Source: Candidatus Rokuibacteriota bacterium (GTDB lineage Bacteria > Methylomirabilota > Methylomirabilia > Rokubacteriales > CSP1-6). Taken from it: 59,716 bases of DNA. Both the position numbers and the translations under genes were made by a program. The stretch covers positions 1 through 59,716 of the forward strand of contig QHSL01000077.1 in NCBI GenBank assembly GCA_003220435.1, given 5' to 3'. Within the stretch, counting starts at the first letter, position 1, and the number at the start of each line of letters is the position of its first letter. A model generated the notes under the pieces. The model saw nothing but the letters and a program-made list of their open reading frames with translations, was not told where the DNA came from and made no database searches. Positions 15,955-42,194 of this stretch are shown piece after piece.

Positions 15955-16099
15955 AGCGGCGCAGGCAGTAGAGCAGGTCGCCGAGACAACCGGTGCAGAG
16001 CTTGCCCGTTCGCTCCTTGTTCGCCAGCGGCCACCGGCCGTCCCGGCACGCCTCGCGCAGCTCGCCGACGGTCAGGTTGGTGCAGTAGCACAGGAGCAT
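15932..16099 (-). CDS. BFD-like [2Fe-2S] protein
   Basis: 55 residues from the ATG at 16099. It has the bacterioferritin-associated ferredoxin pattern: CYC near the N-terminus (Cys4, Cys6), a helical linker (TVGELREACRDGRW) and CTGC at 35-38, giving four cluster ligands. BFD proteins pass electrons to ferritin-bound iron or act as iron-sulphur modules of larger enzymes. No bacterioferritin gene is nearby. Earlier in-frame starts exist but add residues without family character. Confidence 0.75.
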   Translation of the reverse strand: MLLCYCTNLTVGELREACRDGRWPLANKERTGKLCTGCLGDLLYCLRRFSADAPA

Positions 16100-16143
16100 C
16101 GAATCCACGACCTCGGGGACCGGCGCCTTCGCCTCGATGCGCC

Positions 16144-16173
16144 ACCCTACCGTGCGCGTTTCCAGAGTGTCAA
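16144..16173 (-). promoter_or_regulatory. Possible promoter for the BFD-like gene
   Basis: A perfect TTGACA (16173-16168) is followed after 18 bases by TAGGGT (16149-16144), a poor -10 box. The position, about 45 bases upstream of the ATG at 16099, is reasonable; the -10 match is the weak point. Confidence 0.35.
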
Positions 16174-16208
16174 GCCGCCGGCGGGACGCTGGGGCGCCGC
16201 GAGCGCGA

Positions 16209-16217
16209 TGATACAAT
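16209..16217 (+). promoter_or_regulatory. Extended -10 promoter, probable leaderless start of the epimerase gene
   Basis: TGATACAAT carries the TG extension and a 5/6 match to the -10 box (TACAAT at 16212-16217). The GTG start codon of the epimerase is at 16224, seven bases after the box, which is where transcription itself should begin. No ribosome binding site lies before the GTG, in keeping with a leaderless mRNA. Confidence 0.5.
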
Positions 16218-16223
16218 CGCCGC

Positions 16224-17177
16224 GTGAAGGCCGTGGTTCTCGTGACGGGCGGCGCCGGCTTCATCGGCTCGCACCTCGTAGAACGGCTCCTGGCCGACGG
16301 CGACCGCGTGCGAGTCCTCGACAACTTCTCGAGCGGCACGCGCCGAAACCTCGCCTTCGCCGCGCCCCTGCGCCGCCGGCTCACGATCCTCCGGGGGGAC
16401 GTCCGCAACCTGTCGACGGTGATCCGCGCGGCCCGCGGTGTCAGCGTGATCTTTCACCAGGCGGCGATGCGCTCGGTGCCGCGCTCGGTGAAAGATCCGC
16501 TGGGCGCGAACGCGAACAACGTGAACGGCACGCTCAACGTGCTCGAGGCGGCGCGGCGCTGCCGGGTTCCCAGGGTGGTCTACGCCTCGTCGTCGGCGGT
16601 CTACGGCGACCGACCGGACCTGCCCAAGCGTGAGGACCAGCCGCCGGCGCCGATCTCACCCTACGCCGCTTCCAAGGCGGCCGGCGAGCAATACGCCGCG
16701 GTGTGGACGCGGCTCTACGGCGTGGAGACGGTCGGGCTGCGCTACTTCAACGTGTTCGGGCCGCGGCAGGACCCGAAGTCCGAGTATGCCGCGGTGATCC
16801 CCCGCTTCATCCTGTGGGGGCTCGGCGGCCGTCCGCTCGAGGTCCACGGCGACGGCAATCAATCCCGAGACTTCACCTACGTCGACAACGTCGTCGAGGC
16901 CAATCTCCTGGCGGCCAGGGCACGCGACGCGGCCGGCGAGGCGTTCAACGTCGGATGCGGCAGCCGGGTGAGCCTGCTCGAGATCGTCGCGCGGCTCGAG
17001 GCGATCCTGGGACGGAGGCTGGAGCGCAGACACACTCCGCCGCGCTCCGGCGACGTGCCGCACACGCTCGCCGACATCTCGAAGGCAAAGCGGCTGCTCG
17101 GCTACGAGCCGCTGGTGGATTTCGACGAGGGGTTCCGGCGGACGATCGCGTACTTCCGGTCGTCGCTCGAGAGCTAG
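16224..17177 (+). CDS. NAD-dependent sugar epimerase/dehydratase (extended SDR)
   Basis: 317 residues. The NAD loop TGGAGFIG is at 8-15, the SSSAVYGD strand at 122-129 and the catalytic Tyr147-xxx-Lys151 in SPYAASK. GVETVGLRYFNVFGPRQ, then HGDGNQSRDFTYVDNVV, match the UDP-glucose/UDP-GlcNAc 4-epimerase and UDP-glucuronate epimerase group. The product is an NDP-sugar for glycan assembly. It starts at GTG 16224 and is followed after 12 bases by the transporter operon, whose first gene has its ribosome binding site (AGGAGGG, 17176-17182) overlapping this gene's stop codon. Confidence 0.87.
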   Translation: MKAVVLVTGGAGFIGSHLVERLLADGDRVRVLDNFSSGTRRNLAFAAPLRRRLTILRGDVRNLSTVIRAARGVSVIFHQAAMRSVPRSVKDPLGANANNVNGTLNVLEAARRCRVPRVVYASSSAVYGDRPDLPKREDQPPAPISPYAASKAAGEQYAAVWTRLYGVETVGLRYFNVFGPRQDPKSEYAAVIPRFILWGLGGRPLEVHGDGNQSRDFTYVDNVVEANLLAARARDAAGEAFNVGCGSRVSLLEIVARLEAILGRRLERRHTPPRSGDVPHTLADISKAKRLLGYEPLVDFDEGFRRTIAYFRSSLES

Positions 17178-25976: not shown

Positions 25977-27536
25977 ATGAGCGATCACGACGTCGGCCGG
26001 ACGTCCTCTCGGCGTTTCTGGTTCGTCCTGGTCCTGATCGGCGCACTGTTCGTCGCGCAGGGGCTCTACTACGCGCGGACGCTGGTCCCGGTGCACGACG
26101 GAGTGCAGTACCTTCTCATCGGCGCCAAGGTGCTCCGCGGCGAGCTTTCGATCTTCGACGACCGTCTCACCGGCAATCGCCTGCCACTGCCGTTCTACGT
26201 CCTCGGTATGACCCAGCTGGCCGGACCGAATCTGCTCGCCGCGCGATGGCTCAACGTCGGCTTCGGCGTGCTGATCCTCGTGCTGACCGCGCTCCTCGCC
26301 CGGCGTCTCGCCGGAACAACCGCGGGGATCCTGGCCGCGTTGTTCCTCGCGACGCAGGGCGTGGTCGTCGCGTACTACTCGTACGAGAGCTATCCGGCGT
26401 TCGCGGCGCTGTGCCTGATGCTGTGTCTCGTCGTGCTGATGGGTGGCGACTCGACCGCGCATCGGCTCGGCGGGACCGCGCTGGTCGGCCTGCTGTTCCT
26501 GGTCCGGTCCAATCTCTGGCCGGTCGTCCCGTGTCTGCTGGCCTACGCCCTCTGGCGCGCCCGCTCGCTGGCCGAGCGCGCCGCGCTGGTCGGCGCCGTC
26601 GTCGTCCCGCCCTTGATCTTCCTGGCGTGGGATCCGAGCCACCTGAAGGTGCTCGCGTACGTCCCGCTGCTCCGCCGGCTGGTCGCGCCGCTCGGCTACG
26701 TGTCGGTGTTCATCATCGATGCTCGCGAAACGCTCCGTCCGGCGGCGCAGCTCTGGGAAGTCGCGCGGCTGGCGCGGCGCTACGAGTTCTGGGTCCTAGC
26801 CGGTGCCCTGCTCGCGCTGGTGACGGCGTGGCGAGCGGCGAGGGGGCACCGGGCCGACTGGACGCGCGGCACCGCGGGAGCGCTGGCCGTGATCTTCCTC
26901 TGCTCGCTCGGCGCGCTGTTCACGATGTACTCGTGGAACTTCCGCTGGATCGGTCTCTACTTCCTTCCCTACGCGCCGGTGGTCGCCCTGCTGCTCGGCA
27001 TCGGGTACGCCGAGCTCGTCACGAGCGCTCGGCGCCGCTGGATCGTCGGCGCGCTTCTGATCGGCTTGCTCGTCCCGCCGTTGTACTTCGTGCGGAACCC
27101 GCTCTTGCCCATCGGCGAGGCGCGCGCGGCGGATCCGTTCGGCGCCGACCACCGCGCGGCCGCGCGCCTTCGGACGATGGTGCCGTCCGACGCCCGCGTC
27201 TTCTTCTACGGGCTCAACGTCATCTACTATCTCGCCCAGCTGCCGCAGACGTACGTCCAGCAGGTCTACATCCCCAACCAGTTCGCGCGCATGCCGATGG
27301 ACGACGAGGTGCTCCGGCGTTCGGGGATCGTCACGGCGGCGGAGATGCGGTACTGGCTCTCGCATGACGCCGACTACGTCGTCATCGACACGACGTTCCT
27401 CGAGGGCGAGCTGCCCCACTTCGGCGAGACCGAGAAGGAGATGATGGTGCTCATCGAGCGCCACTTCGAGGTCGTCGGGCGGGTGACCGACGCGCCGGGC
27501 GGCGTGCACACGGTCTACAAGCGCCGCGGCCGATGA
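25977..27536 (+). CDS. GT39/ArnT-like membrane glycosyltransferase (paralogue 2)
   Basis: 519 residues with multiple membrane helices, the first at about 14-34. The first periplasmic loop reads HDGVQYLLIG, followed by LRGELSIFDDRLTGNRLPLP and TQLAGPNLLAARWLN. It is closely similar along its length to the next gene (27533) and more distantly to 21602. The C-terminal soluble domain of about 90 residues holds FYGLNVIYYLAQLPQTYVQQ. Its end overlaps the next gene as ATGA. Confidence 0.82.
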   Translation: MSDHDVGRTSSRRFWFVLVLIGALFVAQGLYYARTLVPVHDGVQYLLIGAKVLRGELSIFDDRLTGNRLPLPFYVLGMTQLAGPNLLAARWLNVGFGVLILVLTALLARRLAGTTAGILAALFLATQGVVVAYYSYESYPAFAALCLMLCLVVLMGGDSTAHRLGGTALVGLLFLVRSNLWPVVPCLLAYALWRARSLAERAALVGAVVVPPLIFLAWDPSHLKVLAYVPLLRRLVAPLGYVSVFIIDARETLRPAAQLWEVARLARRYEFWVLAGALLALVTAWRAARGHRADWTRGTAGALAVIFLCSLGALFTMYSWNFRWIGLYFLPYAPVVALLLGIGYAELVTSARRRWIVGALLIGLLVPPLYFVRNPLLPIGEARAADPFGADHRAAARLRTMVPSDARVFFYGLNVIYYLAQLPQTYVQQVYIPNQFARMPMDDEVLRRSGIVTAAEMRYWLSHDADYVVIDTTFLEGELPHFGETEKEMMVLIERHFEVVGRVTDAPGGVHTVYKRRGR

Positions 27537-29122
27537 CGGCGAGCCACGACGCCGCGCCCGCGGCGGACGCGCCGCGCCTGCGTCGTCGCGCCGTGTGGGC
27601 GCTGGTTCTGATCGCCGCGTGCTACGTGGGGCAGGGGCTCTTCTTCGCCCGGACGCTTCTGCCCAGCGGCGACATGGTGCAGTACCTGGTCGCCGGACGG
27701 CTCGCCGTCCGCGGTGAGATCAGCCTCTTCGACGACCGACTGCCCGGGAACCGGCCGCCCCTGCCCTTTTACGTCCTCGGCGTGACTCAGCTCGCGGGGC
27801 CGAACCTGGCCGCGGCCCGCCACGCGAACATCGTCTGGGGCGTCGCGACGCTGTGCCTCACGGCGCTGCTGGCGTGGCGCCTCGCCGGGCCGCGCGCGGG
27901 CGTGCTGGCGGCGGCGTTCCTCGCCTCGCAGGGCGTCGTGGTCGCCTACTACTCGAACGAGGGCTATCCGGCGTTCTCGGCTTGCTGTCTCGCGGCGGGC
28001 CTTCTGCTCCTCCTGGGATGGGACACGCCGCGGTGCCGGCTCATCGGCATGGCGGTCGTCGGCGCGCTGTTCTTCGTCCGCGGCAACCTCTGGCCGGCGG
28101 TGCCGTTGCTCCTCGTCTGGGCGCTCGCCGGCGCCGCGTCGCCGGCGAGCCGCGTCGCGCTCGTTGCGGTCGTGGCGATGCAGCCGCTCGTCTTCTTCGC
28201 GAGCGACCCGCGTCACCTGAAGATCCTCGCCTACGTCCCGCTGCTGAACCGCCTCGTCGCGCCGCTCGGCTACAGCTCGGCGCTCGTGCTCGACGACCGA
28301 GTCCCGTTGACGCTGACCGAGAATCTGTGGGAGGCGGCTCGCCTCGTGCGGCGCTACGAGTTCTGGGTGCTGGCCCTGGTCCTGCTGCTGGCGATCGACG
28401 TCGCGCGGTGGCTGGCCCGTCGATCGACGGCGTCACCGCGCGAGGGGCGAGTCGGCCTCCTCTGGGCGCTTCTGGCGTTCATGCTGGTCGTCCATCTGTG
28501 GATGTTCCAGCTCAACTGGAAGTGGATCGGCGTGTACTTCCTGTCGTTCGCGCCGATCGTTCCCGTGCTGCTCGGAGTCGGATACTCACGGCTGTGGAGT
28601 CTGACTGGTCCGCGGTCCTGGTCACGGCGACTTGTCGTCGTCACGCTCGCGGTCCTGCTCCTCCCGCCGCTCTACTTCGTTCGCCATCCGCTGCTGCCGG
28701 TCGGCGAGGCGCGGCAGCGCGACCCGCTCGGTCGGATCCATACCACCGCCGCGCGGCTCCGAGAGCTCGTGCCGGCCGACGCGCAGGTCTTCCTGTACGC
28801 GTGGAACGTCGGCTACTACCTGTCGGGCCTCCCCCCGACCTATCTCCAGCAGGCGTACAGTGATTGGACCCTGCCCAGCGTCCGCGTCGACGATAACGTC
28901 GTGCGCCGGTCCGGGCTCGTGCCCCTGAGCGATCTCGAGCGCTGGCTCTCGCGGGAGGCCGGCTACGCGGTGATCAACCCGACGTATCTGGCCGCCCACG
29001 ACCAGGAGTTCCTGGGCGCGACTCGCGTGATGCGCGAGCTGCTCGATCGCCACTTCGACAGGATCGCGACGGTGGCCGATTACCCGCCGGCCGTGTACGA
29101 CGTATACCGGCGAAAACGCTAG
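27533..29122 (+). CDS. GT39/ArnT-like membrane glycosyltransferase (paralogue 3)
   Basis: 529 residues, a tandem duplicate of the previous gene: GDMVQYLVAGRLAVRGEISL, then FDDRLPGNRPPLPFYVLGVT, then TQLAGPNLAAARHAN. Like its neighbour it should place a sugar from a polyprenyl-phosphate donor onto a lipid, glycan or protein on the outer face of the inner membrane. Duplication with divergence suggests different acceptors or linkages. Confidence 0.82.
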   Translation: MTASHDAAPAADAPRLRRRAVWALVLIAACYVGQGLFFARTLLPSGDMVQYLVAGRLAVRGEISLFDDRLPGNRPPLPFYVLGVTQLAGPNLAAARHANIVWGVATLCLTALLAWRLAGPRAGVLAAAFLASQGVVVAYYSNEGYPAFSACCLAAGLLLLLGWDTPRCRLIGMAVVGALFFVRGNLWPAVPLLLVWALAGAASPASRVALVAVVAMQPLVFFASDPRHLKILAYVPLLNRLVAPLGYSSALVLDDRVPLTLTENLWEAARLVRRYEFWVLALVLLLAIDVARWLARRSTASPREGRVGLLWALLAFMLVVHLWMFQLNWKWIGVYFLSFAPIVPVLLGVGYSRLWSLTGPRSWSRRLVVVTLAVLLLPPLYFVRHPLLPVGEARQRDPLGRIHTTAARLRELVPADAQVFLYAWNVGYYLSGLPPTYLQQAYSDWTLPSVRVDDNVVRRSGLVPLSDLERWLSREAGYAVINPTYLAAHDQEFLGATRVMRELLDRHFDRIATVADYPPAVYDVYRRKR

Positions 29123-31782: not shown

Positions 31783-32346
31783 TCACCTCGGCGCCGGCCT
31801 CTCGCTCGGCGTCGGCGCGCTGAGTTCGCTCCGGGAACCGAGGTAGGCGATCTTCAGCCACACGAGCAGGCGCGCCGCCGCCAGCATGATGCGCGCCCTC
31901 GTGTAGTAGACGCCGTCCTGCTGGCGGACCTGGCCTCCGGTGATCATGCGGTGCAGCCGAACGTCGACGATCATCCGGGCATTGTAGGTGCTGAGGATCT
32001 CCTCGAGTGACAGACCTCGTCGACCGGCCTGGTGCAAGTCGATGAGCAGCCGGATCCGTCGCGCCGATTCTCCGAGGTTGAAGAAGCCGATGACGTAGCA
32101 GTACGCCAGCAAGACATAGGTCAGGAGCCATACCGCCGCCAGCTCCGGCGGGCCGACCGCGGCCGGGAGACGGTCGGCCGGGCCGAACAGGGCCACGCCG
32201 ACCACCCCGACGCCGGCGACGCCCACGCTCAACAGGATTCCCAGCGGCCGCGCGAGCCCGGGAAAGGCACGCGAGAGGATCACATGCACGACGATGCAGG
32301 TGCCGAGCGCGACGAACGGCGTGAGCGTCAGGACGGCCCGCGTCAC
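31783..32346 (-). CDS. Small membrane protein with C-terminal winged-helix-like domain (A)
   Basis: 187 residues. Three hydrophobic segments occupy about 5-26, 33-53 and 68-90. The cytoplasmic C-terminal part (LIDLHQAGRRGLSLEEILST, then RMIVDVRLHRMITGGQVRQQ and DGVYYTRARIMLAAARLLV) has the helix-helix-wing look of a small winged-helix domain. It is related to the neighbouring gene at 32351. I recognise no named family. It is the last gene of the 11-gene leftward operon, four bases after its paralogue. Confidence 0.6.
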   Translation of the reverse strand: MTRAVLTLTPFVALGTCIVVHVILSRAFPGLARPLGILLSVGVAGVGVVGVALFGPADRLPAAVGPPELAAVWLLTYVLLAYCYVIGFFNLGESARRIRLLIDLHQAGRRGLSLEEILSTYNARMIVDVRLHRMITGGQVRQQDGVYYTRARIMLAAARLLVWLKIAYLGSRSELSAPTPSERPAPR

Positions 32347-32350
32347 CCGC

Positions 32351-32869
32351 TCACCCCCCCTTCTCCATCTTGAGGAGCGCGCGATAGGCGATGTAGATCC
32401 GTGCCAGAAACGATCCGCTGGGAGTCACGGTGTAGCGCCCGCTCTCGAAGAGGGCCAGCCGACCCACCAAGAGGTCGTTGAGCCGCGGCACCACGAGCAC
32501 CTGGTCGTTCAGCGTACTCATGAGCTCGGTGGCGACGACCCCCCGAGCTCCGGCCTGATCGATCAGCAGGAGAATCGACATCGACGGACTGTCGGCCTGG
32601 ACGGCGGAGTACGTGATCATGTACGCGAGGGTCAAGGCGACGTACAGCATCATGAAGTTCCAGTAGTCCCACGCGCTCTGCGGGAGGAAGCGGAGGGCGC
32701 CGGCGGTGACGGTCTGGAGCGCCTGAAACGTCGCCACCGAAAGCATCAGCACCACGAGCGATAGAACCGAGAGCGCCGTGTAGTGTCCGGCCCGCCGTAT
32801 GCGCCAGACGACGAGCTGGGCCATGATCAGGAAGGCGAAGGCGAGCAGCGCGCCGCCGATCGGGCGCAT
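32351..32869 (-). CDS. Small membrane protein with C-terminal winged-helix-like domain (B)
   Basis: 172 residues from the ATG at 32869, which shares one base with the GT2 stop (TGATG). Three hydrophobic segments lie in the first 95 residues. The tail (LLLIDQAGARGVVATELMST, then VPRLNDLLVGRLALFESGRY and ARIYIAYRALLKMEKGG) aligns by eye with the paralogue at 31783. The pair follows a GT2 gene, so the proteins may be membrane partners or sensors of that glycosyltransferase. Confidence 0.6.
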   Translation of the reverse strand: MRPIGGALLAFAFLIMAQLVVWRIRRAGHYTALSVLSLVVLMLSVATFQALQTVTAGALRFLPQSAWDYWNFMMLYVALTLAYMITYSAVQADSPSMSILLLIDQAGARGVVATELMSTLNDQVLVVPRLNDLLVGRLALFESGRYTVTPSGSFLARIYIAYRALLKMEKGG

Positions 32870-33606
32870 CAGAACTTGCCCAGCATCCGCCCCAGACGCC
32901 GATAGCGGCGGCGCTCGGTGACCTTGACTTCCCACCAGAGACGCAGGAGCGCGTCCAGCACGATCCTGAGGTTCCGCAGGGTCAGCGCTTTCGACTCCCC
33001 GGACTCGCGCGGCTTGATCTCGATGCCGACCTGGACGAAGTCCAGCCCCGACCACACCGCTTTCACGACCGCTTCCGTCTGATACGAGAACCCGTTCGTG
33101 TGGATCAGGATCTTGCGGACGACGTCGGTCTTGAAGACGTTCGTGCCGTTGGTGTACGAGAAGCGAGTGCCGAACATCAGGTTGACGCCGGCGGCGTAGA
33201 GCCGCGACAGTCGCCGCCGCCACCAGGAGCGGACGCGCACGTTCGTCACGTAGAAGACGACGAGGTCCGCCCGGTCGATGTACTTGATCCCCCGCGCGAT
33301 CTCCTCCAGCCGCATCTCGTTGTCGCCCGGCACCAGGAGCACGTAGTCGCCCTGCGCCGCCTGGACGCCCGCCTTGTAGATGCCACCGATGTTCAGCTGC
33401 GCGGTGTTGTGGACGACGCGCACGTGCGCGTCCCGCTGGGCCAGCTCGTCGGCGACGGCGCCCGTGCCGTCGGTCGACGCGTCGTCGTACACGAGGACCT
33501 CGAGCGAGGTCGCCAGGGGCTTCATCTGCGTGAGGATCGCTTCCACCGCCGGACCGAGGTTCTTCTCCTCGTTGAGCGCCGGAACGATGACCGTGAGGCT
33601 GGGCAT
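32869..33606 (-). CDS. Glycosyltransferase family 2
   Basis: 245 residues, GT-A fold: LTVIVPALNEEKNLGPAVEA at 4-23, VLVYDDASTDGTG near 37 and the metal-site region LLVPGDNEMRLEEI near 92. It has no membrane helices of its own and resembles dolichol-phosphate mannose synthase-type enzymes. It probably loads a sugar on polyprenyl phosphate or extends a lipid-linked chain. It lies in the leftward operon upstream of two small membrane proteins that could anchor it. Confidence 0.85.
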   Translation of the reverse strand: MPSLTVIVPALNEEKNLGPAVEAILTQMKPLATSLEVLVYDDASTDGTGAVADELAQRDAHVRVVHNTAQLNIGGIYKAGVQAAQGDYVLLVPGDNEMRLEEIARGIKYIDRADLVVFYVTNVRVRSWWRRRLSRLYAAGVNLMFGTRFSYTNGTNVFKTDVVRKILIHTNGFSYQTEAVVKAVWSGLDFVQVGIEIKPRESGESKALTLRNLRIVLDALLRLWWEVKVTERRRYRRLGRMLGKF

Positions 33607-33615
33607 GGCGTCGAC

Positions 33616-34152
33616 CTAGGAGGACGAGGACCGCGAGGACAGGAGCGGCGCCGGCTCGGGCCGCGTGACGCCCATCGCCACGAGGACCTCCTCGTACACG
33701 AGGTCGGGATCGAGCCCGCGGTCGCGCATGCGGCGGCGTCGGATCGCGTACTCGATCAGCGAGAGCGCCCGGCAGAACACGGCCCGGTGCCACGCGAGCC
33801 ACATCACGTCGAGGAGGAGGTGGAAGCACATGCCCCAGAAGACCGCCCACAGCACGCTGGACCTGAGAACCGCCGCCGCCACGTACACGAACGTGAAGAA
33901 CTCGACCGTGTGACAGAGGTTCAGCGCCAGGAAGTCCGGGCGCCGGATCTGGGGAAACACCCGCGCGTGGAACTCGAACATCCGCCGCGGGCTCCAGTCG
34001 CGGAAGCCGTTGCGCTGCAGATAGTCGCCGTAGTGGTCGGCGTCGATCAGGACCGAGGCCACCCAGAAGATCGCGCTGCCCTGCACGCCGAGAACGGGGC
34101 TGAGTGCCCACGCCACCCCGCCGCCCAGGACGACGTGCTCGGGGAGGTTCAC
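33616..34152 (-). CDS. Membrane protein resembling DUF457/YdjM metal-dependent hydrolases
   Basis: 178 residues, GTG start overlapping the radical SAM stop as GTGA. Hydrophobic helices alternate with conserved-looking His/Asp sites: VASVLIDADHYGDYL at 31-45, FEFHARVFP, LALNLCHTVEFF and FHLLLDVMWLAWHRA. That spacing of His and Asp in membrane segments recalls the DUF457 (YdjM) putative membrane metal hydrolases. The C-terminal tail is polar and Ser-rich. The link is weak and the function unknown. Confidence 0.55.
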   Translation of the reverse strand: MNLPEHVVLGGGVAWALSPVLGVQGSAIFWVASVLIDADHYGDYLQRNGFRDWSPRRMFEFHARVFPQIRRPDFLALNLCHTVEFFTFVYVAAAVLRSSVLWAVFWGMCFHLLLDVMWLAWHRAVFCRALSLIEYAIRRRRMRDRGLDPDLVYEEVLVAMGVTRPEPAPLLSSRSSSS

Positions 34153-35819
34153 CGGCCCGGGTCCGGCGGCGGACCGCCGAGGGTCTGCGTCGTCGGCCGA
34201 TCGAGGTGCGTGCGCTTGTGATAGAGAAGCTTGTTGGGCGAGCGCTTACTCCATTCCCGCTTGATGCTGTAGACGACGTTGCGCACGAGGCTCGGCAGGG
34301 ACAGCTGCAGCGGGTAGAGACGGAAGACGTTCAGATAGCCCTTCGCCAGGTACCACGGCAGGAAGTAGAGCTTGGTCAGCGGCAGCTTCATCAGCACGTT
34401 CACGGTGAGGTTCCGGAGCCAGCGGGCCCGCGGGAACATCACGCAGACCGGCCCGAGCAGCGAGAGGTTCTTCTGCATCAGGGCCTCACGGGCCGTGAAG
34501 GACGTGAACGGGCTCTCGGCCTGGTAGCTGTAGAAGAGCCGGTCGAAATCCCCGTCGAAGAACCCGTTCCGCACCGCGTAGTCGGTCAGCTCGCAGCCCG
34601 GGTACGGATGGAGCACCGGGAACTCGGCGTAGGTGACCCGGCAGCGGATGTTGATGTCGAGGTTCTCGATGTCGTAGTCGATCGCCGTCCGGCCGTGCTG
34701 CGCCATGACCTCGGGGCGCAGCGGGACGCCCAGGATCGTGTTCGCGAAGGTGACGACGCCTTCCCGGTAGCAGAGATCGTAGGCGTCGTGGATCTGTTGC
34801 TGCTTCATGTGCCGCTTCACGATCGTGTTCCGCACGTACTCGTTCCCGGCCTCGATCGACATCGTGAGCGAGTGGAGTCCCGCCCGCTTGAGCGCCGCCA
34901 GGTTCTCGCGGGTGAGGACGTTGCACCGGGTGAGGCAGAAGAACGGCAGCCCTACTTCGCGCGGGTAGACCTCGGCGAACTCCTCGAGCCAGGCGTCGAC
35001 CTTCCGGTCGAGGATGAACATGTCGTCGTAGAACTTGATGAACTGGGTGGGCCAGCGTTCCTTGAGCTCCTTCAGCTCGGCGCAGAGGCGCGCCACGCTG
35101 TAGCGGTTGAAGATCGGCCCCTTGCCCGCGTACATGACGTTGAACTTCGGCTCGAAGCAGTACGTGCACTGGTACGGGCAGCCGCGGGAGGACATGAAGG
35201 AACGCAGCGGGAAGCGCGCCAGATGGGTCTTGCGGTAGATCAGCTCGCGATCGTAGAAGGGCAGGTCGTCGAGCACCGTCCGGCGCGGCCGGAGGAACGT
35301 CGGGTCGACCTCCAGGTCGTACTCCGGGCGGGCGGACGCGGCGGCGCCGGCGAGCTGGACCATCTCGGGCGCCTTGCCCTTGGCTCTGAGCACTTTCGTC
35401 GCGTTTTCTTTGGTGACGATATTGGGGATCGCGTCGATCGAACGCCCCGCCGCCAGCCCGTCCAGCAGCTCCTGCCAGCCGTCGTCGCACTCGCCGACGC
35501 CGATCGCGTCGAACGGGCGGGTCAGCACGAGGCCAGGAAAGAACGTGGGGTGGGGGCCGCCCATGACCGTGAAGATGGAGGACGCGTAGGCCTTCACCGC
35601 CTCCGCCGCGCGGAAGTAGGTCGTGTGCTCTCCCGTCTTCGCGCTGAACGCGACGACGTCGGGCCCGATACGGCGCAGATCTTCCTGCAGGTCGTCCTGC
35701 GCGAGGATGGTGACGAACGTCGAGTGGCCGCGACGCTTCGCCAGCGCCGACAGCAGCTGGACGTTCATCGGGTCGATGTACTCGACGTCCCGTTCGACGA
35801 ACAACACCTTCATTCGCAT
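34149..35819 (-). CDS. B12-binding-type radical SAM protein (2)
   Basis: 556 residues. The N-terminal cobalamin-type domain is at about 1-125 (KRRGHSTFVTILAQDDLQED, then FTVMGGPHPTFFPGLVL and VGECDDGWQELLDGL), and the radical SAM core starts at SSRGCPYQCTYC with Cys214, Cys218 and Cys221. The C-terminal region is long and includes RWLRNLTVNVLMKLPLTKLY. Its general plan is like that of the protein at 29191, but the two are not close copies. It lies in the leftward operon just downstream of the E1-beta gene. Confidence 0.85.
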   Translation of the reverse strand: MRMKVLFVERDVEYIDPMNVQLLSALAKRRGHSTFVTILAQDDLQEDLRRIGPDVVAFSAKTGEHTTYFRAAEAVKAYASSIFTVMGGPHPTFFPGLVLTRPFDAIGVGECDDGWQELLDGLAAGRSIDAIPNIVTKENATKVLRAKGKAPEMVQLAGAAASARPEYDLEVDPTFLRPRRTVLDDLPFYDRELIYRKTHLARFPLRSFMSSRGCPYQCTYCFEPKFNVMYAGKGPIFNRYSVARLCAELKELKERWPTQFIKFYDDMFILDRKVDAWLEEFAEVYPREVGLPFFCLTRCNVLTRENLAALKRAGLHSLTMSIEAGNEYVRNTIVKRHMKQQQIHDAYDLCYREGVVTFANTILGVPLRPEVMAQHGRTAIDYDIENLDINIRCRVTYAEFPVLHPYPGCELTDYAVRNGFFDGDFDRLFYSYQAESPFTSFTAREALMQKNLSLLGPVCVMFPRARWLRNLTVNVLMKLPLTKLYFLPWYLAKGYLNVFRLYPLQLSLPSLVRNVVYSIKREWSKRSPNKLLYHKRTHLDRPTTQTLGGPPPDPGR

Positions 35820-35846
35820 CTCCCATTCATCGTCGCGCCTCGGCCG

Positions 35847-35864
35847 GCGGGGCCCCAGCCCCGC
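35847..35864 (-). terminator. GC-rich hairpin between E1-beta and radical SAM genes
   Basis: GCGGGGC-CCCA-GCCCCGC forms a 7-bp stem with a 4-base loop in the only sizeable gap (84 bases) inside the leftward operon. No T-run follows on either strand, so intrinsic termination is doubtful; partial attenuation or mRNA protection is possible. Confidence 0.35.
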
Positions 35865-35903
35865 GACGGCCTGCGGCGCGAACCCCCCGGGCCCGGCGCC
35901 CGA

Positions 35904-36971
35904 TCAGAAGGGCCCGCTGAACTCTTTACCACGGGCGGCGGCGTTTGGAGCAGTCTCCGGAGCGGGCCCTCGCCCGCGGCCGGAGAGCGTCGCGCGGACG
36001 GCGGCGGCGATCTCGGCGGGGCCGGGATAGTAGATCTTCTCCAGCGCCGAGCTGGCGGGCGTCGGCACGTCGGGAAGGGCGACGCGTCCGATCGGCGCCC
36101 GGAGCTCGCCGAAGCACTGCTCGCCGACCCGCGCGGCCAGCTCCGCGCTCACGCCGAAGCTCCGCCAGCCCGTGTCGGCGATGACGAGGCGGCCGGTCTT
36201 GACGACCGAGGCGCACACCGTCTCGGAGTCGAGGGGCCGCGCCGTGCGCAGATCGACGACCTCGAGGGAGATCCCCTCGGCGGCCAGCGCCTTCGCCGCC
36301 TCGAGCGCCTCGCCGACCATGAGCGAGAGGCCGGCGACGGTCACGTCGCGGCCCTCGTGGACGACGGCGGCGTGCCCGAGGGGCGTGTAGTACGGCTCCT
36401 CCCCCACCGGGCCGCTCCGCTCGTAGAGCCAGCGATGCTCGAGGCAGACGACCGGGGTCTCTGTCGTCAGCGCGGTCATCAGGAGCCCCTTCGCGTCGGC
36501 GGGCGTCGCCGGCATCACGACCTGGAGCCCCGGGACGTGGGCGAACATCGCCTGGAGGCTCTGCGAGTGCTGCGCGGCCTGGCCCCAGCCGCGGCCGATG
36601 ATCGCGCGGATCGTGAAGGGCACCCGCATGGTCCCGCCCGACATGTAACGCCACTTCGCCGCGTTGTTGACGAGCTGATCCATCGTCAGCATGAGGAAGT
36701 CGTTCCGCGCGTGCACGAGCAGGGGATGGAGCCCGCGAAGGGCCGCGCCGATCGCGACGCCGGTCAGCGTCGCCTCCGAGAGCGGGGTCTCGAGCACGCG
36801 CTTGCCGCCGAACTCGAGGGCCGGGCCCCGGGTGGTCCCGAAGATCCCCTTCGCGTCGTCGACGCCCACCCCGAGGACGAAGATCCGGTCGTCCTTCGCC
36901 ATCGCCTGGCGGGTGGCCTCGTCGATCGCTTCCCGGTACTTGAGCTCGCGCACGCGTACTCCCTCAGTCAA
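35904..36971 (-). CDS. Thiamine-diphosphate E1 component, beta subunit
   Basis: 355 residues with the transketolase-type pyrimidine domain (YREAIDEATRQAMAKDDRIF, then ETPLSEATLTGVAIGAAL carrying the catalytic Glu) and the C-terminal transketolase domain (VAGLSLMVGEALEAAKAL, then LEVVDLRTARPLD). It pairs with the alpha subunit encoded just upstream (8-base overlap). In 2-oxoacid dehydrogenase complexes E1 hands the acyl group to a lipoyl-E2, but no E2 or E3 gene is in the window. Within a sugar operon the pair could instead transfer a ketol or acyl unit onto a sugar. Confidence 0.85.
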   Translation of the reverse strand: MTEGVRVRELKYREAIDEATRQAMAKDDRIFVLGVGVDDAKGIFGTTRGPALEFGGKRVLETPLSEATLTGVAIGAALRGLHPLLVHARNDFLMLTMDQLVNNAAKWRYMSGGTMRVPFTIRAIIGRGWGQAAQHSQSLQAMFAHVPGLQVVMPATPADAKGLLMTALTTETPVVCLEHRWLYERSGPVGEEPYYTPLGHAAVVHEGRDVTVAGLSLMVGEALEAAKALAAEGISLEVVDLRTARPLDSETVCASVVKTGRLVIADTGWRSFGVSAELAARVGEQCFGELRAPIGRVALPDVPTPASSALEKIYYPGPAEIAAAVRATLSGRGRGPAPETAPNAAARGKEFSGPF

Positions 36972-37935
36972 CGTCGGTACGGAGCATCGCCGGCTCCGGG
37001 AACGGGCTCGCCTTCGCGAAGCTGACGGCGTCCGCTACCTCCGCCTCCAGCACGGCGTCGATCGATGCGCGCTCGGTGGCCGTCAGGATCCCCCGGGCCT
37101 CGAGCGTGCGGGCGAGCGAGGCGACGGGGTCCCGCGCCATCCAGCCGTCGAGCTCGGCCTGGGTCCGGGAGCCCACGTCGGTATCGAAGTTCGGTCCCAC
37201 GTGCTCGCGCCAGCGGTAGGTCTTGGCCTCGATGAAGGTCGGTCCCTCGCCGCGCCGCGCGCGAGCCACCGCCGCCGCGCCCGCCTCGTACACGGCGACC
37301 ACGTCGTTGCCGTCCACGCCGACCGCCGCCAGCCCGTGCGCGGCGGCGCGCGGCCAGATGTCGGCGCTGACCTGGCGCTGCGAGATTGGCGTCAGCGTCG
37401 CGTACAGGTTGTTCTCGCACACGAACACCACCGGCAGCGAGCGAAGCGCCGCGAAGGCCAGGCTCTCGTGCATCACGCCCTGCTCGACGGCCGCGTCGCC
37501 GAAGAAGGCGACCGACACGTCGTCGCTGGCGCGCAGCGTGGCCGCGAGCGCCGCGCCCACCGCCATCGGCACGGTGCCGGCGACGATCGCCGAGGCGCCC
37601 AGCATGCCCGTCTCCGGCGAGGCCAGATGCATCGAGCCGCCCTTGCCGCCGCAGCAGCCGGTCGCCTTGCCGTAGAGCTCGGCGAACATTCCGCGCGTGC
37701 TGCCGCCTTTCGCGAGATAGTGCGCGTGGCAGCGGTGCCCGCTCAGCACCGTGTCGCCGTCGCGCAGCGCTTGGCAGACGCCGACCGCCACCGCCTCCTG
37801 GCCGATCGCCAGATGGGTGGGACAGCGGATCTCCTGCTCGGGATAGAGGGCGACGATCGCTTCCTCCGCGCGACGGATGCGCGCCATCTGGACGTAGAAG
37901 GCCTTCAGGCGCTCGGGTGGGATCGACGTCGTCAT
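36964..37935 (-). CDS. Thiamine-diphosphate E1 component, alpha subunit
   Basis: 323 residues. The family block GKGGSMHLASPETGMLG is near 102-118. The thiamine-diphosphate/Mg motif GDx26NN is present as GDAAVEQGVMHE, then VFVCENNLYA, with Ala at the third position where Gly is usual. VGVDGNDVVAVYEA and EAKTYRWREHVGPN follow. It is closest in plan to acetoin/pyruvate dehydrogenase E1-alpha. It lies 7 bases downstream of a radical SAM gene and overlaps the beta-subunit gene. Confidence 0.87.
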   Translation of the reverse strand: MTTSIPPERLKAFYVQMARIRRAEEAIVALYPEQEIRCPTHLAIGQEAVAVGVCQALRDGDTVLSGHRCHAHYLAKGGSTRGMFAELYGKATGCCGGKGGSMHLASPETGMLGASAIVAGTVPMAVGAALAATLRASDDVSVAFFGDAAVEQGVMHESLAFAALRSLPVVFVCENNLYATLTPISQRQVSADIWPRAAAHGLAAVGVDGNDVVAVYEAGAAAVARARRGEGPTFIEAKTYRWREHVGPNFDTDVGSRTQAELDGWMARDPVASLARTLEARGILTATERASIDAVLEAEVADAVSFAKASPFPEPAMLRTDVD

Positions 37936-37942
37936 CGGTCGA

Positions 37943-39013
37943 TCAGATGAAGTTGACGTGGGTCCCGGGATGCTTGAGCTCCCAGAGATAGCGATTCACT
38001 TCGTCCATGCGGCAGTTCTTGCGGCACTCCGAGATGTCGAGCTGCTGCTCGACGTATTCCTGGCTCTTGCGCCTGAGCTCGCCCGTCCAGATCTGCTCGA
38101 ACGTCTGCTTGAGAATATTCCCGTACAGGAAGCGCTCGTCGAGCAGGTACGCGCTGCAGCCGTAGAGGTCGCCGTGGGCCATGATGTACGCCCAGAAGTG
38201 AGGCGTGGCCATGCACTTCGCGTAGTGGCGGTCCTGGTCCGCGAGCTTCTCCATCGTGTGACGGCGGAAGACCACGTGGAACCGGTCGTCGTTGAGCTTC
38301 TCGAGCTGGTCGGCGAGGTGGAGATGCGGCCGGTAGTCGATCCCCTCGTACTCGTGGGTCAGGCTCATCAGGTGCTGCGAGTACGGCTTGACCACGAGGT
38401 AGTCGAGGCCGGTGTCCCGGCAGCGCTGGGCCAGGTCGACGGCCGAGTCGACCGTCTCGGGCAAGAGCAGCATCTGGGCGCCGAGCGTGCAGCTGGCCTT
38501 GAGCGTCGACCGGAGATCGACGGCGCGGGCGAGATTCTGCCAGACCCGGTCCCAGTCCTTCTCGTCGGTCTGGTGGACCTTCGCGTACGTCTCGCGCGTG
38601 CCCGCGTTGATGCTGGCCTTGATCCAGGTGGTGGCGGGTAAGGCCTGACCTGCGAACTTTTCGGTCAGGGCCACGGCGTTGGTGGTGATGGCGTTGTCGA
38701 CGCCGGCGGACTTGGCGTGGACGATGATCTCGGCGAGTCGCTTGTGCAGAAGCGGCTCGCCCTCGCCGGCGTACATGACGCTCCTCACGCCGAGACGCCC
38801 CATCTCGCTGAGCCGATCCTTCAGGATGTCGGCGTCGAGGAAGCGCACGACATAGCCGATGTAGTCGACCGCGCAGAACGTGCAGCGGTGGTTGCACGCG
38901 CCCGCCGGCGCGATCTCGACGTAGAGGGGGTAGACGAGCTTTCCCTGCGCCCAGTCCGCGACCCGCTCCGGGTGGAAGTGGAGCTTGTGGCTGTCGATCC
39001 GGTGGGCATCCAT
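37943..39013 (-). CDS. Radical SAM protein with SPASM-like C-terminal cysteines
   Basis: 356 residues. The cluster motif CNHRCTFC (Cys40, Cys44, Cys47) is followed by YAGEGEPLLHK and by a TIM-barrel-like core. The C-terminal third has further cysteines (AKCMATPHF, DLYGCSAYL, SECRKNCRMDEVNRYLWEL), as in SPASM/twitch proteins that bind auxiliary iron-sulphur clusters. There is no B12 domain, unlike the other radical SAM proteins here. It is placed between the SIS isomerase and the E1 pair, suggesting a sugar or small-molecule substrate; SPASM peptide modifiers are the alternative, but no precursor peptide gene is visible. Confidence 0.8.
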   Translation of the reverse strand: MDAHRIDSHKLHFHPERVADWAQGKLVYPLYVEIAPAGACNHRCTFCAVDYIGYVVRFLDADILKDRLSEMGRLGVRSVMYAGEGEPLLHKRLAEIIVHAKSAGVDNAITTNAVALTEKFAGQALPATTWIKASINAGTRETYAKVHQTDEKDWDRVWQNLARAVDLRSTLKASCTLGAQMLLLPETVDSAVDLAQRCRDTGLDYLVVKPYSQHLMSLTHEYEGIDYRPHLHLADQLEKLNDDRFHVVFRRHTMEKLADQDRHYAKCMATPHFWAYIMAHGDLYGCSAYLLDERFLYGNILKQTFEQIWTGELRRKSQEYVEQQLDISECRKNCRMDEVNRYLWELKHPGTHVNFI

Positions 39014-39026
39014 GCGTCGCCTTCCC

Positions 39027-39668
39027 TTACCGCCCGGCGTCGGCCCCGCCGGTAGCGGAGAGGCGGCCGTGGATCGCGACGATCGTATCCAGCAGACAGT
39101 GCGAGAGGCTCAGATGCGTGACCTCGACGTGGCCGTACGATTTCGACGCGACGTAGAAGTTGAGGTCGCCCAGGCGCCCCAGCGGGTTCTCGCGGTCGAA
39201 GCCGGACATGGTGATGACCCGGCACCCCCTCTGGCGCGCCGCGCGGGCGGCGCGGACGATGTTCTCGGAGCGCCCGGAGCTCGACACCGCCACCAGCACG
39301 TCCCCCGCGTCGGCGAACATCTCGATCGGCTTCTCGAAGACCTGGGGATAGCCGAAGTCGTTGCTGATGCACGTCAGCAGCGCCGGATCGTTGAACGCGA
39401 GCGCGCGCATCCCACCGGTCTTCCAGTAGTCGACCGCCTGGTGGCTGGAGATGGCGGCGCTGGCGCCGTTGCCGATGAACATGATCTTGCGCCCGCACTT
39501 CGACTGCGATACGAGGATGTCGATCGCGCGGCTCATCCCGTCGGCGAAGTCCACGGACGCGCCCGAGCCATCGAAGACCGTCACGCTCTTCTGGGCGCGG
39601 GCCAGATCGTCGAAGAAGACGGCGACCGCCTGCCTGGCCTGAGCGCTCGGCGCCGGCCGGTCCGTCAT
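39027..39668 (-). CDS. SIS-domain sugar-phosphate isomerase, GmhA-like
   Basis: 213 residues from the ATG at 39668 (ATGA overlap with the preceding gene). The SIS fold is marked by KIMFIGNGASAAISSHQAVD, FNDPALLTCISNDFGYPQVF and VLVAVSSSGRSENIVRAARA. GmhA converts sedoheptulose 7-phosphate to heptose 7-phosphate and normally works beside the HldE kinase/nucleotidyltransferase, exactly the partner encoded upstream. The role is therefore probably ketose-to-aldose phosphate isomerisation; the sugar may be a heptose or a less common one. Confidence 0.82.
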   Translation of the reverse strand: MTDRPAPSAQARQAVAVFFDDLARAQKSVTVFDGSGASVDFADGMSRAIDILVSQSKCGRKIMFIGNGASAAISSHQAVDYWKTGGMRALAFNDPALLTCISNDFGYPQVFEKPIEMFADAGDVLVAVSSSGRSENIVRAARAARQRGCRVITMSGFDRENPLGRLGDLNFYVASKSYGHVEVTHLSLSHCLLDTIVAIHGRLSATGGADAGR

Positions 39669-41203
39669 TTCAGCAGCGCCGTGAGGAACTTGTAGAGGGG
39701 AACCGGCTCCACGGAGGATCGGTTGCCGACGATGCGGACGGCGAGGGCGCCCACCGCGTTGCCGATGACGCCGACCTCGTCCATCGGCGTGGCGGCGGCG
39801 ACACACGGCGCGGTCAGCGAGAGATACGCGTCGCCGGCGCCCACCCGGTCGACGATCTCTCGCGAGAACACCGGCACCTCGAACTGGGTGCCGTCCTCGC
39901 CGGCGGTCAGCGACCCCAGGTGGCCGCGCGTCACCGCGACCGCTCGCGCGCCCAGCAGCCCCTTGACCTTGTCGGCCAGCTCGGAGACCGGGCTCCAGCG
40001 ATCGTGCATCGCCAGCCGCATCTCCGGCTCGTCGATGCAGACGTAGTCGGCCCGCGGGTATTTGGTGATCAAGTTGTAGCCGAGGTTGGCGCTGTTCGCC
40101 TGGGTGTTCACGGCCAGAAACTGCGATCCCTCGCAGAGGGTCGTCACCACCCGGGGGCTCAGGAAGCCGTGGCCGTAGTCGACGGCGATCACGAGGTCGT
40201 AGCGCGCCAGCTCGCTTGTGAGGTGGTCCACGACCTGGTCCTCGAGCGCCGGCGGGATGTCGGAGTCGTCCATGAAGACGATCTCGAACATCTTGACCAG
40301 GAACGGCTCCCAGATGTACCGGCGCTTGATGATGGTCGAGGCGCCTGGGCGACGGAAGAAGACGGGCGTCACGTTGGGCTTCACGTGCTGCCTGATGAAG
40401 TCCTCGCGCGAGTCCCGCTCGCCGACGCTCGTGACCAGGTGCACCTCGTTGCAGAAGCCCGCCACGTGGTTGGCGCACGCGAGCGCGCCACCCGCGAAGG
40501 CCTCCTCGCGCAGGTAGCGCGTGGCGACGATCGTCTCCTTGGGCGACTTCCCCATCGGCTGGCAGTAGTGGTACTCGTCGATGATCGCCTCGCCGATGAC
40601 CAGCACGCGCATGTCCCGCAGCCCGTTCAGCCGCCCGATGACGTCCTCAGGGCTGTGCCGGGTCTTGAACTCCTCGAGGAACCGCCGCGCTTCCTCCGGA
40701 TAGACGCCGTAGTACTGGTTCAGCAGCTCGCTCGAGCTGAACGTGATGTCCGCGGTGAACTCGATGCGGCCGCCCACCTTCCTGACGGCGTCTTCCTCGG
40801 CCTGGATGCCCCGCGTGATGTCGCTCTCGCGGTCTGCGTAGTCGCTGCCCTTGCAGTACACCCCGGGCCGCAGGAGCGCGATGGCCTCGGTCGCGGTGGG
40901 CCACGCGTTGATCGCGACGAAATCCACGCACTCCAGCGCCGCGATCGACTCCGCCCGAAGCCGCTCGTTGAAGACGGGCCGGCCCGGACCCTTGTGCACG
41001 AAGCGGTCCGGCGTGACCGTCACCACGAGCACGTCGCCGAACCGCCGGGCCGACTCGAAGTGCCGGATGTGGCCGAAGTGCAGGAGGTCGAAGACGCCGT
41101 GGCACTGGACGACGGACTTGCCCTCGTCGCGGAGCGAGCCCAGAACCTCGGCCAGCTCTTCGAGAGGACGGATCTTGCCGCCGGGCCGCGCGACGCTGGA
41201 CAT
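39665..41203 (-). CDS. Nucleotidyltransferase-PfkB kinase fusion (HldE-like, reversed domain order)
   Basis: 512 residues from the ATG at 41203; an in-frame TTG lies 15 bases upstream. Residues of about 25-155 are a cytidylyltransferase-like domain with HFGH at 42-45 in GVFDLLHFGHIRHF and NERLRAESIAALECVD. Residues of about 175-512 are a PfkB/ribokinase-like sugar kinase (IKRRYIWEPFLVKMFE, then the catalytic GAGD in DRVGAGDAYLSL). HldE makes ADP-heptose with the kinase first and the nucleotidyltransferase second; here the order is reversed. It probably phosphorylates and nucleotide-activates a sugar phosphate made by the neighbouring isomerase. Confidence 0.85.
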   Translation of the reverse strand: MSSVARPGGKIRPLEELAEVLGSLRDEGKSVVQCHGVFDLLHFGHIRHFESARRFGDVLVVTVTPDRFVHKGPGRPVFNERLRAESIAALECVDFVAINAWPTATEAIALLRPGVYCKGSDYADRESDITRGIQAEEDAVRKVGGRIEFTADITFSSSELLNQYYGVYPEEARRFLEEFKTRHSPEDVIGRLNGLRDMRVLVIGEAIIDEYHYCQPMGKSPKETIVATRYLREEAFAGGALACANHVAGFCNEVHLVTSVGERDSREDFIRQHVKPNVTPVFFRRPGASTIIKRRYIWEPFLVKMFEIVFMDDSDIPPALEDQVVDHLTSELARYDLVIAVDYGHGFLSPRVVTTLCEGSQFLAVNTQANSANLGYNLITKYPRADYVCIDEPEMRLAMHDRWSPVSELADKVKGLLGARAVAVTRGHLGSLTAGEDGTQFEVPVFSREIVDRVGAGDAYLSLTAPCVAAATPMDEVGVIGNAVGALAVRIVGNRSSVEPVPLYKFLTALLK

Positions 41204-41204
41204 C

Positions 41205-42194
41205 CTAGCGCTTGCCAAGGTGCGCGAACCACTCGCGGGTCGCGTCGTGGATCCGCTCCGGTGTCCACACCGGCGCGTCCTTCCAGTCGTCGAGGTGCTC
41301 GAGCATCACCGCCACACCCTCCTCGAACTTCACCTTCGGCGACCATCCGAGGACGCGACGGATCTTCGTGATGTCGCCGTGCGTGATGTCTGGCTCGCCC
41401 GGTCGCTTCGGGAGATAGGTGACAGGACCGCCGATGAGACCAGCCAACGACTTCACGCTCTGCGGCGCTCCGGACGCTACGTTGAACACTTCCCGATCGA
41501 TGTCCGAGACGGCGGCCGCGACGAAGGCCTCCACGACATCGGAGACGAAGACGAAGTCACGCTGCTGGCTCCCGTCGCCGACGATCGTGAGGGGAGCACC
41601 GTGTGCGCGCTGGGCGAGGAAGACTCCGAAGACGGCGCCGTAGGCGCCGGTCGTGCGTGAACGCGGGCCGTAGACGTTGAAGAGGCGAAGAGAAGCGGCT
41701 GAAATCCCATAAACTTCGGCCCAGTGTAGCACAGCCTGCTCACCCGCCCATTTTGCGAACGAGTACGGATACAAGAGCCGCGGCGACGTCGTCTCCGGCG
41801 TTGGATACACGTCGGGAATCCCGTAGCACGAGGAGGACGCCGCGTACACCACGCGCGCCACCCGAGCCTGTCGCGCCGCTTCCAGGACCGCCACGGTACC
41901 CCCGACGTTGGCTCGGTGATAGCGCAGCGGTGACGAGATCGAGGGGACGATGTCCGCGAGCCCGGCCAGGTGAAACACCACGTCGACCCCGTGGAAGCTC
42001 GGGACGATGGCGTCGTACTCGGCCACGTCCACGAGGGTCAGGGTGACGGGCGCACCGGACGGCAGGTCGCGGAGGTTCTCGCGCCGTCCGGTCGCCAGAT
42101 TGTCCAGGACCACGACGCTATGGCCGTCGGCGACCAGGCGGCCGACCAGATGGCTGCCGATGAAGCCGCAACCGCCGGTGACGAGCGCTCTCAC
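41205..42194 (-). CDS. NAD-dependent sugar epimerase/dehydratase
   Basis: 329 residues, extended SDR: TGGCGFIG at 6-13, VVYAASSSCYGIPDVYPTPE and the catalytic YPYSFAKWAGE. RLFNVYGPRSRTTGAYGAVF, then VGDGSQQRDFVFVSDVVEAF, place it with UDP-sugar 4-epimerases and related enzymes. It is the first gene of the leftward operon and diverges from the MarR-EPS regulator across a 97-base gap. Several stretches (for example 41690-41760) are less GC-rich than neighbouring genes. Confidence 0.87.
   Translation of the reverse strand: MRALVTGGCGFIGSHLVGRLVADGHSVVVLDNLATGRRENLRDLPSGAPVTLTLVDVAEYDAIVPSFHGVDVVFHLAGLADIVPSISSPLRYHRANVGGTVAVLEAARQARVARVVYAASSSCYGIPDVYPTPETTSPRLLYPYSFAKWAGEQAVLHWAEVYGISAASLRLFNVYGPRSRTTGAYGAVFGVFLAQRAHGAPLTIVGDGSQQRDFVFVSDVVEAFVAAAVSDIDREVFNVASGAPQSVKSLAGLIGGPVTYLPKRPGEPDITHGDITKIRRVLGWSPKVKFEEGVAVMLEHLDDWKDAPVWTPERIHDATREWFAHLGKR

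Follow-up and report, generated by a model that had tools for sequence, protein, structure and literature searches.

A pair of small membrane protein genes and its surroundings

The window, i.e. the whole stretch of 59,716 nucleotides analysed here, carries on its minus strand two adjacent open reading frames, M1 (32351-32869, ATG start, 172 aa, ending in Lys-Gly-Gly) and its paralogue M2 (31783-32346, GTG start, 187 aa), separated by 4 bases. The start of M1 overlaps by one base the end of the gene for a DPM1/ArnC-like GT2 of 245 aa (32869-33606, minus strand; PF00535, 1.4e-24), which we propose as catalytic partner. An earlier note, made from the sequence alone, had described a pair of related proteins placed after a GT2 gene: both reading frames and their position agree with it, and the tail motifs it quoted (LIDLHQAGRRG against LIDQAGARG, then RLHRMI against RLNDLL) are found. 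As to the kinship, M1 and M2 each retrieve the other in a genome search (E 3e-5 to 4e-5); their local alignment scores 97, while none of 2000 shuffles exceeds 59; and the profile-profile comparison, over 138 columns that take in the membrane part, gives a probability of 97.4 and an E of 9e-12. The three kinds of test agree, and judged from these sequence comparisons M1 and M2 are distant paralogues whose likeness goes beyond chance.

A small YdjM-like membrane protein (33616-34152, minus; weak match, E 0.2) belongs to the same operon, between the GT2 gene and that of a B12-binding radical SAM protein (34149-35819, minus; PF04055 and PF02310); its BLAST cluster is present in 4 of 53 loci. Farther along the minus strand, family searches point to TPP-dependent E1-beta-like (35904-36971) and E1-alpha-like (36964-37935) subunits and to a radical SAM/SPASM protein (37943-39013), the latter corresponding to recurrent neighbour cluster 2. 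Then come, still on the minus strand, a reading frame (39027-40478) whose aa 312-425 match a GmhA-like SIS domain (PF13580, 1.3e-14) and whose true start is probably internal, and an HldE-like protein (39665-41218) sharing a BLAST cluster with L126:14238-15776 (CTP_transf then PfkB). On the plus strand, positions 25977-29122 encode two adjacent PMT-like membrane proteins of 519 and 529 aa that cluster together by BLAST and seem to stem from a tandem duplication.

The neighbours were tallied over 53 loci, within 7 kb of the pair (9 kb in the window), with Pfam names for ten representatives and the other labels assigned by reading sequences. GT2 is found in 30 loci, B12-radical SAM in 25, radical SAM/SPASM in 23, E1-beta in 20, HldE-like (CTP_transf then PfkB) in 17, a methyltransferase in 16, an epimerase in 15 and E1-alpha in 14, all these counts being lower bounds because the simple gene caller misses genes, chiefly near the ends of contigs and in loci of low GC content (L156, L157). 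The common gene order is HldE, SIS, radical SAM/SPASM, E1-alpha, E1-beta, GT2, radical SAM, M1, M2. In L159-L167 the pair is isolated, and the same GT2 is found with most of the gene set at another place in the genome; in two loci of Elusimicrobia (L130, L131) the pair adjoins clpB, no glycan genes being called nearby, and the genomes encode the GT2. The gene set (32351-42194 in the window, plus the related loci) looks like an undescribed activated-sugar pathway recurring across phyla, and none of the papers listed by our literature searches describes a pair or a gene set of this kind.

Fold, topology and conservation of M1 and M2

AlphaFold models, each based on 17 sequences, have a mean pLDDT of 85.0 for M1 and 83.6 for M2. 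Both display three N-terminal helices (residues 2-24, 30-54 and 66-91 in M1; 2-27, 33-54 and 66-110 in M2) followed by a tail in the order helix-helix-helix-strand-strand-helix, as in a winged helix; this domain covers aa 95-165 of M1 (32375-32587, minus) and aa 94-167 of M2 (31846-32067, minus). Foldseek matches of the models are weak (best E 0.017 and 0.09). In VIA-align comparisons with MarR, MexR, HxlR, PadR and SmtB, Z is 10-12, and about 75-85 residues are superposed, in most cases at an rmsd of about 2-3. The earlier note had read in each protein three membrane segments and a winged-helix-like tail; the models recover both, and for the tails the structure comparison does so too.

The note had also stated that the two proteins match no named family, which holds: alone, M1 and M2 belong to no family of Pfam (E<=1) or NCBIfam, with one NCBIfam match at E 0.27. 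When 17 relatives of M1 (Pfam, NCBIfam) and 17 of M2 (Pfam) are searched, the best match is DUF4199, for a single member (E 8e-4), and the remaining ones are weak, several being to winged-helix families. An early alignment of 19 members gave, in Pfam, winged-helix families as top matches (HVO_A0261_N, 2e-5; EutK_C, 9e-5; HemN_C, 1e-4; HTH_45, 0.006). A sequence search of the PDB with query P0001 returned nothing usable, the sole match being at E 1.5.

Lys and Arg are frequent in the loop between helices 1 and 2 (2.8 per sequence in M1, 1.8 in M2) and rare between helices 2 and 3 (0.5-0.6). With a basic first loop the winged-helix tails should be cytosolic, therefore on the same side as the GT2.

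Conservation is not evenly distributed. Over 49 sequences the mean entropy is 1.77 (M1) and 1.60 (M2) for the end of the third helix and the juxtamembrane block, and 1.59 and 1.52 for the C-terminus; it reaches 2.2 in the recognition-helix region and 2.1-2.9 in helix 2 and the wing. The block YSAxxxDSP of M1 (aa 87-95, 32585-32611, minus), at the cytosolic end of the third helix, has low entropy and is invariant or nearly so in alignment A4. The C-terminal Gly-Gly of M1 (32354-32359, minus) was tallied over the first members of the pairs (window and loci L018-L136): the final Gly is present in 49 of 53 and Gly-Gly in 35 of 53. A ubiquitin-like reading of this terminus was rejected, no E1-type (ThiF) or protease gene being recognised among the recurrent neighbour families. 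In one subfamily both members have a C-terminal GPGG.

In the recognition-helix region some arginines are almost fixed: R129 of M1 (98%), R130 (100%) and R133 (94%) of M2. The other positions of helices 2-3 and of the wing are variable, and most of those exposed are not basic. Since the winged-helix tails are net positive (median +4 and +6) and carry these near-invariant arginines, a contact with DNA or with acidic lipids is possible.

Spread of the pair and its relation to the GT2

In the phylum of the window, the pair is present in 10 of 95 genomes (G000, G002, G004, G006, G047, G056, G066, G088, G089 and G090); the window genome and G047 are of the same family. The search, with a mixed profile, had given 13 genomes at E<=0.01 before sorting; the match in G003, an HxlR-like regulator, was discarded, those in G029 and G039, being weak, were set aside. 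Weak matches in G085 and G063 were attributed to chance, the locus having no such gene. A scan of named genomes yielded 16 loci, from Rokubacteria, Deltaproteobacteria, Nitrospirae, Nitrospinota, Elusimicrobia, Verrucomicrobia and a record labelled Gemmatimonadetes (AG14), with M2 after M1 in all 16. Outside the phylum, M1 profiles with a cut-off of E<=1e-6 were positive in 6 of 297 genomes in the phylum of a Desulfobacterales genome, in 12 of 295 in that of a Nitrospirae genome, in 2 of 337 in that of a Verrucomicrobiaceae genome and in 12 of 247 in that of an Elusimicrobia genome. These low counts over several phyla indicate a pair that is rare and patchy, yet broadly distributed. No match was obtained by tblastn on plasmids with M1 and a second member of the Gly-Gly type as queries.

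M1 and M2 are adjacent genes at 51 of the 53 loci. The exceptions are L114, where a single cluster holds both at a distance of 3.4 kb, and L134, where M1 alone was detected. As the searches outside the phylum used M1 profiles, the neighbouring M2 is there an independent observation. Among these loci, L045 and L046, where the profiles missed one member, have coordinates set by hand; L136, weak and in reversed order, is counted in the 53 and excluded from counts over 52; L017 was removed, being the same locus as L049. On L132, a contig of the Elusimicrobia phylum, two copies of the pair (1081-2852 and 15299-16411) lie about 13 kb apart.

The GT2 of the window has no segment above the hydrophobic/TM threshold. 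Its nearest solved relatives include ArnC and the Pyrococcus DPM synthase, the closest being 9hwj. Aligned with the archaeal DPM synthase 5mlz, whose residue numbers were fitted to the motifs named in PMC5526996, its D95, R130, S134, R200 and K206 correspond to D91, R131, S135, R202 and K208; D95 thus takes the position of the metal Asp, and R200 and K206 those of the A-loop. D95, R130 and S134 are invariant in the 22 GT2s aligned. According to PMC5526996, S135, R117 and R131 of PfDPMS bind the acceptor phosphate and R202 and K208 make the A-loop contacts; R117, the third phosphate ligand, has no Arg counterpart in our GT2. The same article describes the human type-II enzyme as a TM-less DPM1 associated with two small membrane proteins, DPM2 and DPM3. 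The GT2 is of a DPM1/ArnC-like subfamily devoid of membrane helices, with most of the polyprenyl-phosphate-binding residues of the archaeal enzyme kept.

Does this GT2 go with the pair? A profile of the GT2 subfamily at E<=1e-60 is positive in nine of the 95 genomes of the phylum: 7 have GT2 and pair, 3 the pair only, 2 the GT2 only and 83 neither, a co-occurrence (Fisher p 3.7e-7) to be read knowing that these genomes are related by descent and that the gene set may travel as one. The three pairs without GT2 are all on broken contigs (G066, 4.3 kb; G089, 15 kb; G004, contig start). The two genomes with GT2 alone are G067 and G068; the match to the subfamily (L140 and L139 respectively) holds one in-frame TGA in each, possibly the mark of a decaying gene. 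Outside the phylum, among 40 genomes chosen as bearing the pair, the GT2 is detected in 36 at 1e-30 and in 35 at 1e-60; 20 of these genomes fed the GT2 profile, and of the other 20, 15 match at 1e-60. Counted by hand, 24 of the 40 genomes have the GT2 less than 10 kb from the pair, 1 has it at about 29 kb and 10 have it on another contig; the match is weak in 1, and there is none in 4.

The earlier note had suggested looking for such pairs next to GT2 genes. A GT2 is in the neighbourhood at the 30 of 53 loci given above; directly upstream of the pair it stands at no more than 9 of 52, to which L048, at the edge of a contig, may be added. An occurrence of the pair independent of glycan genes, which the note held to count against its proposal, is seen in part at the level of the locus: at 13 of 52 loci the 7 kb around the pair yielded no call of a glycan-type family—the calls being lower bounds—and 8 of the 13 genomes encode the GT2 subfamily, while a ninth locus, L048, has a cut GT2 reading frame at the contig edge. 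The distance matrices of M1 and M2 correlate with r 0.72 (48 loci); those of M1 and its neighbours give (Mantel) 0.29 for GT2 (n=22), 0.43 for HldE-like (n=15) and 0.08 for E1-beta (n=20). Tree similarity ties M1 to M2 and does not single out the GT2 as partner.

Readings of the pair and comparison with known systems

The earlier note had offered two roles for the pair, membrane partners of the GT2 or membrane-tethered regulators. We favour the first because the GT2 has no TM helices and is of a subfamily found with the pair in the same genomes even without linkage, and over the second because conservation is comparatively low at the DNA-facing residues. As the pair is mostly found in genomes with an anchor-free GT2, it is probably its missing membrane part. 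That M1 and M2 form together a heteromeric membrane module of a soluble polyprenyl-phosphate glycosyltransferase has, in our judgement, about an even chance of being right; this is the best reading of fold, pairing, topology, co-occurrence and conservation taken together. The GT2 encoded just upstream would be the soluble catalytic subunit, making a polyprenyl-phosphate-linked sugar from a nucleotide sugar that the HldE, SIS, radical SAM and E1 genes of the cluster could supply. M1 and M2 would form an obligate heteromer anchored by the three TM helices of each subunit; these helices may give its shape to the site where the lipid enters on the cytosolic side, which is also where the conserved residues sit, and the winged helices may be protein-protein docking domains that receive the GT2 or bind one another.

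Other readings share part of this evidence. The fold is closest to DNA-binding proteins of the MarR/HxlR/PadR type, the tails are net positive, and M1 R129 and M2 R130 and R133 are fixed or nearly so in the recognition-helix region, all of which would suit transcription regulators tethered to the membrane, with winged helices binding DNA to report a lipid-linked intermediate sensed there. We nevertheless consider this unlikely: helices 2-3 and the wing are otherwise variable with mostly non-basic exposed positions, conservation peaks at the juxtamembrane region and at the C-terminal tip, and strictly paired, non-identical subunits in a biosynthetic operon would be unusual for a regulator. Just as improbable to us is a heterodimeric flippase for the polyprenyl-phosphate sugar of the GT2, acting as ArnE/ArnF after ArnC. 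A pair of small membrane proteins beside an ArnC-like GT2 (closest to 9hwj), providing six TM helices if they dimerize, speaks for such a flippase; but each protein has three helices, not four, neither matches EamA/SMR in Pfam, the conserved residues are at the cytosolic face, and the GT2 would be left with its missing anchor unexplained.

M1 and M2 might also be a membrane scaffold for the radical SAM, E1 or HldE-like enzymes rather than for the GT2 specifically. Their trees fit HldE-like better than GT2, and a B12-radical SAM or radical SAM/SPASM gene is immediately upstream in 8 of 52 loci. On the other hand these enzymes would have no clear need for a membrane, and several of them are absent from loci that keep the pair, so that we give this scaffold the same small chance as the regulator and the flippase.

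Returning to the module of the soluble GT2, a more detailed version of it can be put forward tentatively, with a likelihood somewhat below even: M1 and M2 would be an independently evolved bacterial counterpart of DPM2/DPM3, an obligate heteromer that does not bind DNA, anchors and activates a TM-less GT2 in the service of an undescribed pathway found across phyla (HldE-like, SIS, radical SAM/SPASM, E1-alpha/beta) for a lipid-linked sugar, and has the Gly tail of M1 in the active complex. Two families without Pfam or NCBIfam entry, present in several phyla, hereby gain a testable set of partners. This suggests for bacteria a DPM-like synthase made of several subunits, in which winged helices act as assembly domains, and the same genes point to an uncharacterised sugar pathway.

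Among known systems, M1 and M2 share with the MarR/HxlR/PadR/ArsR regulators a C-terminal winged-helix fold (Z 10-12), but are attached to the membrane by three TM helices and, apart from one (M1) or two (M2) near-invariant arginines, conserve weakly their DNA-facing surface. DUF2304 proteins are small membrane proteins often near GT2 genes, to our knowledge without winged helix; one of 17 M1 members matches them at E 0.089, which is chance level and not significant. ArnC with ArnE/ArnF resembles our set by an ArnC-like GT2 accompanied by a small membrane protein pair. ArnC has its own TM helices, and ArnE/ArnF are EamA-type proteins with four TM helices and no known winged helix, whereas M1 and M2 have three TM helices, a winged helix and no Pfam match. 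Another parallel is human type-II DPM synthase, in which a TM-less GT2 of the DPM1 type is likewise combined with two separately encoded small membrane proteins; of the three acceptor-phosphate residues of PfDPMS, an Arg (R131) and the Ser (S135) are kept in our GT2. Each of DPM2 and DPM3 has two TM helices and no known winged helix, while M1 and M2, paralogues of each other, have three plus a winged helix and no match in Pfam. On the best reading of this analogy, M1 and M2, which differ from DPM2 and DPM3 in sequence and in number of helices, would be unrelated to them and yet work like them.
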